In this document: positions 4,165-11,139 of the stretch, piece by piece
Numbering within the stretch: the first letter of the stretch is position 1
How the letters are laid out: every line of letters starts with the position of its first letter
Assembly: GCA_029259875.1 (NCBI GenBank)
Contig: JAJDEK010000019.1
Coordinates: 1-14,410 of the forward strand
Direction: 5' to 3'
DNA length: 14,410 nucleotides
DNA from: Planctomycetaceae bacterium
GTDB taxonomy: Bacteria > Planctomycetota > Planctomycetia > Planctomycetales > Planctomycetaceae
Made by a program: the position numbers and the translations under genes
Notes under the pieces: generated by a model
Databases searched by the model: none
The model's input: the letters and a program-made list of their open reading frames with translations, nothing else
Told to the model about the DNA's origin: nothing

Positions 4165-4407
4165 TTATCGTTTCCTTTTAGCAGCTTTTTTCTTCTTTGG
4201 AGCAGCTTTCTTCTTCACTGCCTTTTTCTTAGCTGCCTTTTTCTTTGGGGCTGCTTTTTTCTTTGCCTTTTTCTTTGGAGCAGCTTTTTTCTTAGCAGCT
4301 TTCTTTTTCACTGCTTTTTTCTTTACTGCCTTCTTTTTCACTGCTTTTTTCTTTGGAGCAGCCTTTTTCTTTGGTGCTGCTTTTTTCTTTGCCTTTTTCT
4401 TTGCCAC
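4165..4407 (-). CDS. Histone H1-like lysine/alanine-rich DNA-binding protein
   Basis: 80-residue protein that, apart from the initiator, contains only Lys, Ala, Pro, Val and Arg. By count, 45 of 80 residues are lysine, in 14 clusters of three or four separated by A, AA, AV or AAP, with a KRKR C-terminus. This matches the tail of histone H1 and the bacterial H1-like proteins (chlamydial Hc1/Hc2 type, and planctomycete AAPKKKA proteins). It is expected to bind DNA without sequence specificity and compact the nucleoid; there is no globular domain. The start is the GTG at 4405-4407: a perfect AGGAGG (4415-4420) lies 7 nt upstream. The open frame reaches an ATG at 4485, but that adds 26 non-lysine-rich residues, has no Shine-Dalgarno and lies at the predicted transcription start. 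The repetitive DNA could slip and change copy number. Confidence 0.85.
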   Translation of the reverse strand: MAKKKAKKKAAPKKKAAPKKKAVKKKAVKKKAVKKKAAKKKAAPKKKAKKKAAPKKKAAKKKAVKKKAAPKKKKAAKRKR

Positions 4408-4414
4408 CGCAAAT

Positions 4415-4420
4415 CCTCCT
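4415..4420 (-). promoter_or_regulatory. Consensus ribosome binding site AGGAGG
   Basis: AGGAGG on the minus strand, 7 nt ahead of the GTG at 4405-4407. It fixes the start of the histone-like gene at GTG rather than at the upstream ATG and suggests strong translation. Confidence 0.85.
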
Positions 4421-4441
4421 TTGAGAGTTAAACGAGGGCTG

Positions 4442-4477
4442 CCTTGCCGCTGGCTCCGGGCTATAAGTCGGCAAAGG
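4442..4477 (-). promoter_or_regulatory. Hairpin in the 5' leader of the histone-like gene
   Basis: On the minus strand CCTTTGCCG (4477-4469) can pair with CGGCAAGG (4449-4442) with one bulged U, giving an 8-bp GC-rich stem around a 19-nt loop. It ends about 22 nt before the AGGAGG site. It could stabilise the mRNA or modulate translation; no known riboswitch is recognised. Confidence 0.35.
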
Positions 4478-4490
4478 TCTGCCACAACGA

Positions 4491-6176: not shown

Positions 6177-7538
6177 ATGAAAAATACAACCTGGATTCCC
6201 CTTCTGGCGGCCGCAATGATAATGGCCTGCTTTGGAGAGAATGCCCAGGCAGGCTACCTCGGAGCAGGTAGTTATAACTGTTGTCCCACAGAAGCATGTG
6301 CATCCTGTGGCGATTATAGCGCTGCCAAAGAATGTTCAAGTACCTGTTACAAGACGGTCGTAGATACTGTCTGGGAAAAGCAGAACTACACCTGTCAAAA
6401 AACAGTGTATGATACAATCTGCGAAAAAGTTCCCGTTCAATACTCCAAGAATGTTTACAAGACCTGCTACCGTGATGAATGCTATACGGTGTGCAAGCCT
6501 GTTTACAATACTTGTTATCGAGACGTCTGTTACAATGTTTGTCGTCCCGTTTACAAAACCTGCTATCGAACTGTAACCTGCAAACGCAGACGGCCCGTTT
6601 ATAACACTTGCTACCGTGAAGTATGCTACTCGGTCTGCAAGCCCGTTTATAACACCTGTTACCGCGATGTTTGTTACACAGTCAGACGCCCTATCTGTGA
6701 AACTCACTATCGGGATGTCTGCTGCACGATTTACAAAACGAATTATAAAACCTGTTATCGTGATGTATGTCGTACTGTTTGTAAGCCCGTTCATACCTGG
6801 CACAATGTTGAAGTATGCTGTGGTGAATGGAAAACAACAACTGAGCACTGCCCCGGACCAGTCGTTGAAAAATGCATCTGTGAGCCAGGAACCTGGGAAT
6901 ATGATTGCAGCTCATGCTGCCCGATCTACAAGCCTGGATGCTGCAAAACAGTGAAAGTTCAATGTCCCGGAACAACAATTTGCCGACGTACCTGGTGTCC
7001 CAAGACGGTAACCAGAAAAGTCTGCTGCACTACTTACCAACGTGAAGTCAAGCACCAGCGGGTTCCTTACACAGTATGTGAGCGAGTTCCTTGCACGATT
7101 ACCAAGAAGGTGCCTTACACATGCGTCCGTCATGAGTGTGAAACACGAACCAAGAGGGTTCCTCACACGACCTGCAAAATGGTACGTGAATGTCGCACTC
7201 GTAAAGTCCCTTACACAACATGCTGCTGGAAGGAAGAATGTGTCACTAAGCAGGTTCCTTACACGACTTGCACCATGGTTTCAGAATGCCGAACCAGAAA
7301 GGTTCCCTACACCACCTGTAGCTATGAGCAAAAGACCTGTACTCGTAAAGTTCCTTACACAACTTGTCAGCAAGTATGTTGCACTAGATATGTAACGCGA
7401 ACGAAATGTGTGCCACGAACTGTTTGTGTCACCAAAACACGATGTGTGCCAAGACAAGTTTGCCGTAAAGTCCCTGTCTGCTGTCCCGCGCCAAAGACAT
7501 GCACTGCACCGGCTCCCAAGACTTGTGTCAGCAACTAG
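6177..7538 (+). CDS. Secreted cysteine-rich YTV-repeat cell-surface protein
   Basis: 453 residues with about 67 cysteines (close to 15%). A signal peptide is clear: MKNTTW, a hydrophobic core, and a likely cut after AQA at residue 25. The mature protein has four parts. Array A (95-206) is seven 16-residue units of consensus [KN]TCYRDVCYTVCKPVY. A central non-repetitive CC-rich segment (207-295) follows. Array B (about 296-407) is seven units with period 16 built on VPYTTC, with R/K before it and EC or TC after. The C-terminus has CVPR[TQ]VC twice, 12 residues apart. VPYT-repeat proteins of this kind are known from planctomycetes (the YTV domain) and have been linked to the disulfide-linked proteinaceous cell wall. 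A structural, cross-linked envelope role is inferred. The many Lys/Arg residues make it strongly basic. It is followed by a strong terminator, so it is probably monocistronic. Confidence 0.88.
   Translation: MKNTTWIPLLAAAMIMACFGENAQAGYLGAGSYNCCPTEACASCGDYSAAKECSSTCYKTVVDTVWEKQNYTCQKTVYDTICEKVPVQYSKNVYKTCYRDECYTVCKPVYNTCYRDVCYNVCRPVYKTCYRTVTCKRRRPVYNTCYREVCYSVCKPVYNTCYRDVCYTVRRPICETHYRDVCCTIYKTNYKTCYRDVCRTVCKPVHTWHNVEVCCGEWKTTTEHCPGPVVEKCICEPGTWEYDCSSCCPIYKPGCCKTVKVQCPGTTICRRTWCPKTVTRKVCCTTYQREVKHQRVPYTVCERVPCTITKKVPYTCVRHECETRTKRVPHTTCKMVRECRTRKVPYTTCCWKEECVTKQVPYTTCTMVSECRTRKVPYTTCSYEQKTCTRKVPYTTCQQVCCTRYVTRTKCVPRTVCVTKTRCVPRQVCRKVPVCCPAPKTCTAPAPKTCVSN
6459..6794 (+). repeat. Protein repeat array A: 7 x 16 residues (CYRDVCYTVCKPVY)
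   Basis: Seven consecutive units of exactly 48 nt, with no insertion or deletion, encoding residues 95-206 of the YTV protein. Units 1, 2, 4 and 7 keep CYR[DE]xC...C[KR]PV. Units 3, 5 and 6 are degenerate and lose some cysteines. Codon choice differs between units, so the array is old rather than a recent DNA duplication. Confidence 0.85.
7062..7397 (+). repeat. Protein repeat array B: 7 x 16 residues (VPYTTC)
   Basis: VP[YH]T begins at residues 296, 312, 328, 344, 360, 376 and 392, an exact 16-residue period over seven units (48 nt each). The consensus is VPYTTC, three or four variable residues, then EC or TC and a basic pair. It has the same unit length and copy number as array A but a different motif. 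Confidence 0.85.
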
Positions 7539-7587: not shown

Positions 7588-7623
7588 AAGGGCGGTTGAT
7601 CCTAGATCAACCGCCCTTTTTTT
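7588..7623 (+). terminator. Intrinsic terminator of the YTV gene
   Basis: A 14-bp perfect stem (arm AAGGGCGGTTGATC, 7588-7601; partner 7605-7618) closes a 3-nt CTA loop and runs into an uninterrupted T tract to 7623. It sits 50 bp after the YTV stop and is followed by the convergent HAD gene. Confidence 0.93.
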
Positions 7624-7652
7624 AATGTATTAACTATAGTGGAGGGGCGTTA

Positions 7653-9633: not shown

Positions 9634-11139
9634 TTAGAACATCCCTCCAAACGTTTCTAAGAAGAATGAACTAACGCTGGAAGGGTCGTCGTAATGCCAC
9701 ATGGTTCGGATCAGATCGTACATCATGATAGTACAGATCCCCAATAATAACGTGGAGATTCCAAGTGCGGCAAAAGTGCCTGCTCCCCATTCTGGTTCAG
9801 GTGCCATGGCTGCAGACCGACCACCGCTGAAACCAGCGGGTGCAACAAATTCGGCATGGCTTTCACCACTCTGGAATGAATCGTCGAAATCGTCGTCGTC
9901 TGCATCATAGATATCATCAAAATCATCTTCGTCATCGAAGGCCTCTGACAACATTGAATCATCACTGGCGAATTCATCATCATCGTCGTCGTCATCGAAG
10001 AGGCCTGATTCGCTGTCTTCATCATCTGAATCCAGAATCACTGAACCAGATGAACCCCCCACATCACCATCCTCATTCAACATGAGCACGCTGGTGTCGG
10101 CGCTAGAATCTGACAGATCGAAACTGCTGTCATCATCATCATCCAGAGTGGGGATTTCCAACGTAGCGTCTTTGTCACCACCGGCGGACATCATGGGTAC
10201 GGTTTTATCAATATCATCAACATCAATTGGCTCCAGGGAAATTCCGCTATCGGCAGTGATGGAGATATCACCATCATCTTCCAGAGAAATACCGCTCGAA
10301 TCTTCGTCGACGAGTGAAATTCCACTTTCATCAGCGCCTTCCAGTGAAATGCCACTATCAAGGGGACCCGCTAATGAGATTCCACTGTCAGTTGCCAGTG
10401 AGATACCACTATCTTCTTCGAGTATTGAAGAGTCTCCGTCATCACCCTGAATTAAGGCCACATCGCTGTCGCTGCCTAGATCGAAATCATCACCGACTAA
10501 AGCGACATCACTTTCACTGTTGGCTAGATCCGAGTGATCAGCCACAAGTTTGACATCACTGTCGCTACCCGCATCGATATCCAGGGTTTCAAAGTCGGGC
10601 TCAGAGTCAGCGTCAACCAGTTTGACATCACTGTCGCTGCTAAGATCAATACTCGAATCATCAGTGAGGCGGACATCGCTGTCTGAATCTTCGCCGACAG
10701 CAACCAGTTCCGGCTCACTATCTAGTTGTAGTTCATCACCATCATCATCAACAACCAGCCGTACATCGCTATCAGAACTGCTCAATTCGATGGGAGATTC
10801 ATCCTCCTCATCATGCACGCTTCCGCGAATCACAGTCGCTTGTTCACCGACTTCATCCTCATCAATCACACTATCTGAGCCGCTCGCAATGTCGTCTTCT
10901 TCCAGAATGGCTGAGCCAAATAGGTCCTCATCTTCACCCCCTGACATCAAAGGAATCGCAGGATCGGAATCAGCCTGAAACGAGCGGCCGAGTTCGTCAA
11001 TATCCTCCATGCGAAACTTCCACGCGCCTCTATCTGCAAATCCACGAATATCACCGCTCTCTCTGAGGCGATTTAATTCGTCTGTTTCCATGCCAAGCTG
11101 AGCAGCAGCTTCTTCTAGATTGAGATATTTTTTGGCCAT
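9634..11139 (-). CDS. Helix-turn-helix protein with acidic repeats and C-terminal membrane segment
   Basis: 501 residues in three parts. Residues 1-58 form a MerR/excisionase-type helix-turn-helix (MAKKYLNLEEAAAQLG..., ending KFRMEDIDEL). Residues 60-425 are a very acidic, low-complexity Asp/Ser region that includes six SDSDV[RKA]L-type motifs and six SGISL motifs. Residues 431-455 are Gly/Ala/Pro-rich, followed by one transmembrane segment (about 456-477: AALGISTLLLGICTIMMYDLI) and a 24-residue tail. This predicts a cytoplasmic DNA-binding domain on a long flexible linker, anchored in the membrane with the C-terminus outside. Similar architectures occur in planctomycetes, to my recollection, without known function. 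The start ATG 11137-11139 has GGAG 10 nt upstream and begins right at the HTH. It is the third minus-strand gene after an ECF sigma factor and pspA, but 445 bp separates it from pspA. Confidence 0.75.
   Translation of the reverse strand: MAKKYLNLEEAAAQLGMETDELNRLRESGDIRGFADRGAWKFRMEDIDELGRSFQADSDPAIPLMSGGEDEDLFGSAILEEDDIASGSDSVIDEDEVGEQATVIRGSVHDEEDESPIELSSSDSDVRLVVDDDGDELQLDSEPELVAVGEDSDSDVRLTDDSSIDLSSDSDVKLVDADSEPDFETLDIDAGSDSDVKLVADHSDLANSESDVALVGDDFDLGSDSDVALIQGDDGDSSILEEDSGISLATDSGISLAGPLDSGISLEGADESGISLVDEDSSGISLEDDGDISITADSGISLEPIDVDDIDKTVPMMSAGGDKDATLEIPTLDDDDDSSFDLSDSSADTSVLMLNEDGDVGGSSGSVILDSDDEDSESGLFDDDDDDDEFASDDSMLSEAFDDEDDFDDIYDADDDDFDDSFQSGESHAEFVAPAGFSGGRSAAMAPEPEWGAGTFAALGISTLLLGICTIMMYDLIRTMWHYDDPSSVSSFFLETFGGMF
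9709..9774 (-). other. Transmembrane segment of the HTH protein
   Basis: Codons 456-477 encode the only long hydrophobic stretch of the protein. It is preceded by a Pro/Glu/Trp-rich stretch and followed by RTMWHYDD, consistent with a single C-terminal anchor. Confidence 0.75.
10234..10413 (-). repeat. Six SGISL motifs
   Basis: Within residues 243-302 the motif [DES]SGISL occurs six times, at about 10-residue spacing for the first five. A degenerate DISIT copy precedes the last. Acidic residues separate the copies. Confidence 0.8.
10450..10776 (-). repeat. Six S[DE]SDV[RKA]L motifs
   Basis: Within residues 122-230 the motif recurs with starts near 122, 152, 168, 192, 208 and 223. It is an acidic Ser-Asp pair before a hydrophobic-basic-hydrophobic core. 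Spacing is irregular, unlike the SGISL block. Confidence 0.8.

Follow-up and report, generated by a model that had tools for sequence, protein, structure and literature searches.

A single gene in the stretch of DNA analysed here (the window; 14,410 nucleotides of contig JAJDEK010000019.1 from a Planctomycetaceae bacterium) encodes a cysteine-rich YTV-family protein that is very probably one giant two-stranded antiparallel β-hairpin, or ribbon, in which residue i faces residue 491 − i. At the level of sequence, this reading is carried by the equal lengths of two repeat arrays across lineages, by two-residue deletions matched between the arrays, and by a ladder of covarying residue pairs that is replicated in related families; the strands themselves are predicted. 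The outgoing leg would consist of array A and its flank, the tip of the PG-containing spacer, and the returning leg of array B and its flank, giving approximately 190 rungs without a register shift. The protein family is a known one, and the two-leg hairpin is the addition made here.

The gene occupies positions 6177-7538 of the forward strand and encodes 453 amino acids, of which 67 are cysteine, with 73 lysine and arginine residues against 32 aspartate and glutamate residues; these counts bear out the description of a basic protein with about 67 cysteines in the first-pass annotation, which had been made from the sequence alone. The YTV motif of planctomycete wall proteins, which had also been recognized there, is corroborated by the PF07639 (YTV) profile, which matches the protein in seven stretches, scoring 85 bits where the cut-off is 21 (E 3.7e-24). 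The protein is cysteine-rich like YTV wall proteins in general, a trait that is not universal, as some homologues have between 2 and 12 cysteines. Judging from its N-terminus, the product is presumably exported: residues 1-25 (6177..6251, forward strand) are hydrophobic, end in AQA and would constitute an export signal, within which AlphaFold2 places a helix at residues 7-17 with low pLDDT. A strong terminator-like inverted repeat with a T-run, read directly in the sequence, lies immediately 3′ of the gene (7589..7624, forward strand). Of the 16 other genomes in the window’s genus, 15 carry relatives that are 91-97% identical and the last, a draft (G007), has a 43% match only; in its own genome, a 74% complete draft, the window gene is the sole one found. 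Protein matches were obtained in 59 of 59 related genomes (its own included) and in 166 of the 170 genomes of the family, and the YTV family in none of 14 named control genomes; one study describes YTV as restricted to Planctomycetales (PMC8567305).

Array A spans residues 94-205 (6456..6791, forward strand) with the consensus YKTCYRDVCYTVCKPV, and array B spans residues 296-407 (7062..7397, forward strand) with the consensus VPYTTCTYVCETRTKK, both derived from 12 orthologues. Each comprises seven 16-residue units without an indel, and the 90-residue spacer between them is rich in cysteine and CC pairs, so that the two arrays of seven around a CC-rich spacer stand as first annotated; of the span then given, 6459..7397, the end is retained and the start moves one codon upstream. 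In most of 23 orthologues laid out by eye, the penultimate unit of array A is a CCTxYKTx-like variant. Residue identity at a lag of 16 is 0.311 in the window protein, compared with 0.087 ± 0.012 in shuffled sequences (z 18.3). No DNA-level repeat was detected inside the gene by Tandem Repeats Finder at a score of 50, which argues that the units are not recent copies. The two motifs had been called unrelated, which can no longer be maintained: at the best of all rotations, the unit profiles of A and B resemble each other more closely than do controls whose columns were permuted (P 0.0115). The array B unit is most like itself at a turn of 8 residues (P 0.019) and the array A unit at turns of 4 or 12 (P 0.016), with 8 next. 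In view of this rotational likeness and internal self-likeness, both arrays may represent versions of a single short motif, approximately V-x-x-T-x-x-K/R-x; that A and B are homologous is suggested, not proven.

The register of the proposed hairpin was obtained from covariation. Among 105 same-family orthologues with arrays of 112 residues each (100 of them distinct, Neff 49.6), the covariation that links residues of A to residues of B is concentrated, after average-product correction, on the line A_i + B_j = 103, which is flanked by shoulders at 105 and 101 (z 11.1, 7.6, and 5.8 against farther diagonals), and the largest other diagonal reaches 0.033 compared with 0.182 on the ladder. This line ranks first or second in all five blocks that it crosses, namely A × B and the four neighbouring ones. 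A triplet of this kind, with i + j constant and shoulders at ±2, is the signature expected of an antiparallel β-ladder. In a landmark-free alignment of 100 orthologues, numbered by the columns of P0001, i + j = 491 tops 673 antiparallel diagonals (z 12.1, 202 pairs), followed by 493 (z 9.3), 489 (z 7.7), and 490 (z 4.1), with the next unrelated diagonal at 3.3; 491 was again the best in each of three random 30-row subsets (z 6.0-7.8). The signal extends from residue 54 towards the tip, where it amounts to 0.20 at residues 238-245 and where 491, 493, and 489 are the highest of the tip-only diagonals listed; at residues 158-165 it is almost nil (0.03). The cysteine-containing head (residues 26-53; 6252..6335, forward strand), which would form the open end of the hairpin, gives no ladder signal where measurable, the covariation at residues 38-53 being 0.01 and −0.05.

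Replication was sought in further families, from which rows more than 97% identical were removed (35 reduced to 31 in family f2, 31 to 28 in family f5, 38 to 31 in a group of paralogues with six units in each array, and 30 to 29 in an HflX control); family f4, with 3 genomes, was too small to be included. In f2, whose proteins are approximately 750 residues long (31 rows, Neff 18), the triplet of 751 with 749 and 753 (sums counted from zero) provides the best three of 1207 diagonals, with about 338 pairs (z 7.2, 5.9, and 5.2). In the paralogues (31 rows, Neff 24), 464, 466, and 462 are the best three of 637, with 195 pairs (z 8.7, 5.9, and 5.5, the next being 3.2). The f5 replicate (28 rows, Neff 25) is weaker: its triplet of 543, 545, and 547 (241 pairs; z 5.0, 4.3, and 3.9) ranks second of 807, behind an edge diagonal of 42 pairs with z 5.8, and its parallel lags of 16, 32, and 48 reach z 7.9, 7.4, and 5.0. 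The HflX control, consisting of same-family orthologues (29 rows, Neff 25), showed neither a long diagonal nor a triplet, the best z being 4.2 on 42 pairs.

Structure prediction leads to the same register. From an alignment of 14 sequences, AlphaFold2 models the window protein as two continuous β-strands, both ends of which sum to 491. Predicted leg 1 comprises residues 57-225 (6345..6851, forward strand), made up of the N-terminal flank, array A, and the first part of the spacer, and predicted leg 2 comprises residues 266-434 (6972..7478, forward strand), made up of the end of the spacer, array B, and the C-terminal flank. At the predicted tip, residues 226-265 (6852..6971, forward strand), short pairs at 229-235/256-262 and 239-243/248-252 continue the sum of 491 and are interrupted at PG motifs. 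Confidence in this model is low (pLDDT 55.6, pTM 0.18), with values mostly of 54-69 in the strands, dips below 50 at residues 133-142 and 345-359, and values below 50 at residues 1-60; they are also low at residues 430-453, which include a C-terminal tail that varies among orthologues (residues 438-453 and the stop codon; 7488..7538, forward strand). For a distant lineage with five units in each array (16 sequences), the predicted strands are residues 47-188 and 229-370, every pair summing to 417, with moderate confidence (pTM 0.28; pLDDT in the strands largely 65-81, falling in places to about 56). Before modelling, P0011, P0013, and P0014 were dropped from alignment A2 and P0058 and P0102 from alignment A4 because their ends or arrays were misaligned. 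The agreement in register between prediction and covariation is that of a separate method that is not wholly independent, as AlphaFold2 draws on alignment covariation too; its 14 sequences were mostly outside the covariation set. The first-pass annotation had called for a structure prediction, and in the low-confidence model the two arrays do share a geometry, as antiparallel partners. The lineage with five units per array (P0033, P0036, P0084, P0114, and others) also possesses a confidently predicted helical C-terminal domain after the strands, for which PF14559 is listed in P0084 and P0114 and whose helices at residues 437-537 of P0033 are mostly above pLDDT 80; it is possibly an adaptor on the hairpin.

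Covariation is blind to whether a contact lies within one chain or between two, and the same ladder, on the identical diagonal i + j = 491, would arise from an antiparallel domain-swapped dimer that joins leg 1 of one chain to leg 2 of a second. We regard such a swap as improbable, since the ladder reaches into the tip itself and AlphaFold2 closes the tip in both lineages modelled, these being single-chain runs that are unable to show a swap. No sequence match to the window protein was found in the PDB. A Foldseek search with the low-confidence model gave 221 matches, one alone below 0.001 (E 3.6e-5) and reflecting local long-hairpin likeness, and no meaningful relative, the TM-scores being at most 0.17 among the 50 matches listed. 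The solved structures with long antiparallel hairpins, which include the phi29 collar/tail axis (6qz9) and the pores of lysenin, aerolysin, and complement, are locally alike, a likeness that is suggestive only; in these the hairpin forms just a part of a domain, whereas the window protein would, in its low-confidence model, be nearly all hairpin.

The distribution of cysteines on the rungs of the proposed ribbon bears on how such molecules could be joined. Cysteine faces cysteine on the ladder 0.64 times per protein against 1.90 expected, which is 0.34 of expectation or an approximately threefold depletion (z −13 relative to permuted rows, a test that takes no account of kinship), while cysteine pairs at other offsets from the ladder are near expectation (0.86-1.05). 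Along one strand, cysteines at i and i+2 are nine times rarer than expected (0.22 against 1.98), those three apart occur at 0.54 of expectation and those one apart at 0.85, and, per protein, a single cysteine is present on about 52 of 191 rungs. Depletion both across the rungs and along the strand suggests that cysteines are held apart within a ribbon. Charges on the rungs are likewise skewed, pairs of positive residues being less frequent than expected (0.61 against 1.52) and pairs of opposite charge more frequent (10.56 against 8.97). Nine homologues chosen for having 2-12 cysteines all keep the 16-residue pitch (z 7.8-25), and the fold would thus be independent of disulfides; YTV homologues with 2-9 cysteines that keep the 16-residue period include L058, L067, L164, L168, P0083, P0105, and P0112.

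These observations count against the stacked disulfide rungs that had originally been suggested, and equally against a solenoid with 16-residue coils in each array, both of which we now regard as very unlikely. A high cysteine content and parallel covariation at the repeat period would be in keeping with either, the best parallel lags in the window family being 16 (z 5.3) and 32 (z 4.7), with stronger values at the same lags in f5. Duplication of units gives such lags too, and may explain those of f5, where the units are nearly identical; we read the parallel lags and stray diagonals of both families as unit duplication and noise. Lags of 16 and 32 are absent from the six best parallel lags of the paralogues with six units per array, the ten best A × B diagonals include none near 103 ± 16, and the best parallel A × B diagonal has z 3.55 on 63 pairs. 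Together with the depletion of facing cysteines, the pitch retained by low-cysteine homologues, and the lack of solenoid coils in the AlphaFold2 models of the window protein and its relative with five units per array, this favours the antiparallel hairpin.

Across relatives, the lengths of the two arrays change together. The lengths of A and B, in residues, were measured between four landmark profiles (N-flank, spacer start, spacer end, and C-flank) built from 33 orthologues that are themselves among the measured loci; these replaced Viterbi counting with fixed A and B profiles, which was noisy for distant members. From 169 loci, 10 duplicates were removed, and of the resulting 159 a further 37 with weak landmarks, mostly distant class-level homologues, were set aside, leaving 122. 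The arrays are equal in 112 of these: 102 measure 112/112, four 128/128, four 144/144, one 96/96, and one 110/110. In family f5, measured with its own landmarks (31 rows, 28 usable; L055 and L173 denote a single gene, and three genes are shared with the first tally), 25 of 28 are equal, mostly at 144/144 and also at 128/128 (twice), 138/138, and 224/224. Equal arrays thus occur with 6, 7, 8, 9, and 14 units, and with 18 when counted by eye. The first-pass annotation had asked whether 7 + 7 is kept in orthologues: the equality is, the number seven itself is not, other loci having 6, 8, or 9 units. Unrelated copy numbers, which it had named as contrary evidence, were looked for, and the lengths of A and B co-vary instead. 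As far as the sequences of these relatives indicate, the equal copy number is no coincidence.

The ten unequal loci fall into three kinds. L041 contains an assembly gap (a run of X, with part of the sequence duplicated), and L093 is truncated where its contig stops; neither counts as a true mismatch. In L044, L047, L048, L050, and L077 the landmarks were misplaced in a paralogue group; when these five were aligned separately with six others, each of the 11 measured 96/96. L042 (32/112), L094 (80/96), and L153 (96/112) are real mismatches that gaps or contig ends do not explain. L094 and L153 are similar genes of one genus, and in both array A has one unit fewer than B (5/6 and 6/7); they may represent a real off-by-one clade or an assembly error. 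The unequal rows of f5 are L179, L183, and L187. All six unexplained unequal genes are in draft assemblies of about 100 to 790 contigs, and collapsed repeats are a possible cause that is not shown, many equal genes coming from drafts too; loci from assemblies of 10 contigs or fewer are equal in 24 of 24 cases (paralogue group and weak-landmark rows aside).

The correspondence extends below the level of whole units. L136 has one 14-residue unit in each array, the residues gone being 59-60 of A and 45-46 of B, with a sum of 105 against the 103 predicted from the ladder, and L181 has three such units in each array, with sums of about 133 against 135. In L054, array A has 18 units, six of them short (276 residues), and array B has 17 + 1, again with six short (260 + 16 = 276). 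In all three genes, the short units are at mirrored places, a unit near the spacer in A corresponding to one near the spacer in B; the positions, which were assigned by eye, may be off by about 2-3 residues. The short units of L054 stem from tandem copies of one 5-unit block and represent fewer than six independent events. L054 itself is an 885-residue open reading frame in which this block of 76 residues is tandemly repeated in both arrays, and past the last B unit likeness to the family is lost, as if by a frameshift. Odd lengths are shared as well, as in the 110/110 and 138/138 genes. The original proposal that both arrays build one structure is strongly supported by these matched deletions and by the co-varying lengths. 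That equal copy number merely reflects shared ancestry, a 7/7 state inherited without structural coupling, would suit the 102 loci of that length and has next to no probability, as equality persists at the other unit numbers and odd lengths and is accompanied by residue-level covariation for which the HflX control argues against an artefact.

YTV-domain proteins (PF07639) have been reported from wall preparations (PMC8567305; PMC5287468), including SDS-resistant walls of Rhodopirellula, Gemmata, and Tuwongella, and the window protein belongs to the same family by profile match; one YTV protein is listed among the essential genes of Planctopirus limnophila (PMC10632474). The question of how the protein-rich planctomycete wall is constructed goes back to the 1980s (PMC8567305, citing papers from 1984 and 1986), and the relation of this wall to peptidoglycan is disputed (PMC4432640; PMC5287468). 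The accessible portions of PMC8567305, PMC10632474, and PMC5287468 describe no fold or array pairing for YTV proteins, and no YTV fold, mirror-matched arrays, or single-cysteine rungs were found in the literature searched, which covers few subscription journals and was available in part. The isolation of the cysteines on the ribbon, considered alongside reports that place YTV proteins in the SDS-resistant wall, makes bonding between neighbouring ribbons their likeliest role. Cysteines that can nearly never bond straight across the ribbon would cross-link neighbouring molecules, and the ribbons, once exported, would be packed into the SDS-resistant protein wall, with rod length set by copy number.

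The rise of a β-strand is 0.33 nm per residue, and strands of 169 residues would give a ribbon of roughly 56 nm. We are inclined, with some reserve, to regard YTV proteins as a new architectural class of approximately 450-800 residues, almost wholly one β-hairpin, in which mirror-matched arrays that expand in step set the length of the rod, the single-rung and almost never facing cysteines of the cysteine-rich members bond between molecules, and the rods form a covalently linked sacculus of protein that strengthens peptidoglycan or takes its place. The cysteine-rich envelope proteins of Chlamydia are joined by intermolecular disulfides. The window protein may resemble them in cysteine richness and in bonds of this kind; we know of no repeat hairpin in the Chlamydia proteins. 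The hairpin would offer a testable model for the rods of which the planctomycete protein wall may consist, and the register i + j = 491 makes wall build-up directly testable at residue level. It suggests a simple, tunable, genetically encoded β-ribbon rod of about 50-110 nm, and it poses an evolutionary puzzle, in that two arrays that are separate and have diverged alter their lengths in concert, even by as little as two residues.

Repeats of other kinds occur elsewhere in the window. On the reverse strand, a Lys/Ala-rich open reading frame with KKKAAPKKKA-type repeats at 4165-4485, which we take to be histone H1-like, contains the window’s only repeats detected by Tandem Repeats Finder (4189-4403). 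Also on the reverse strand, positions 9634-11139 encode an acidic protein rich in Ser and Asp, in which SDSDVxLV and DSGISL motifs recur between a weak, below-cut-off match to HTH_17 and a hydrophobic C-terminal segment.
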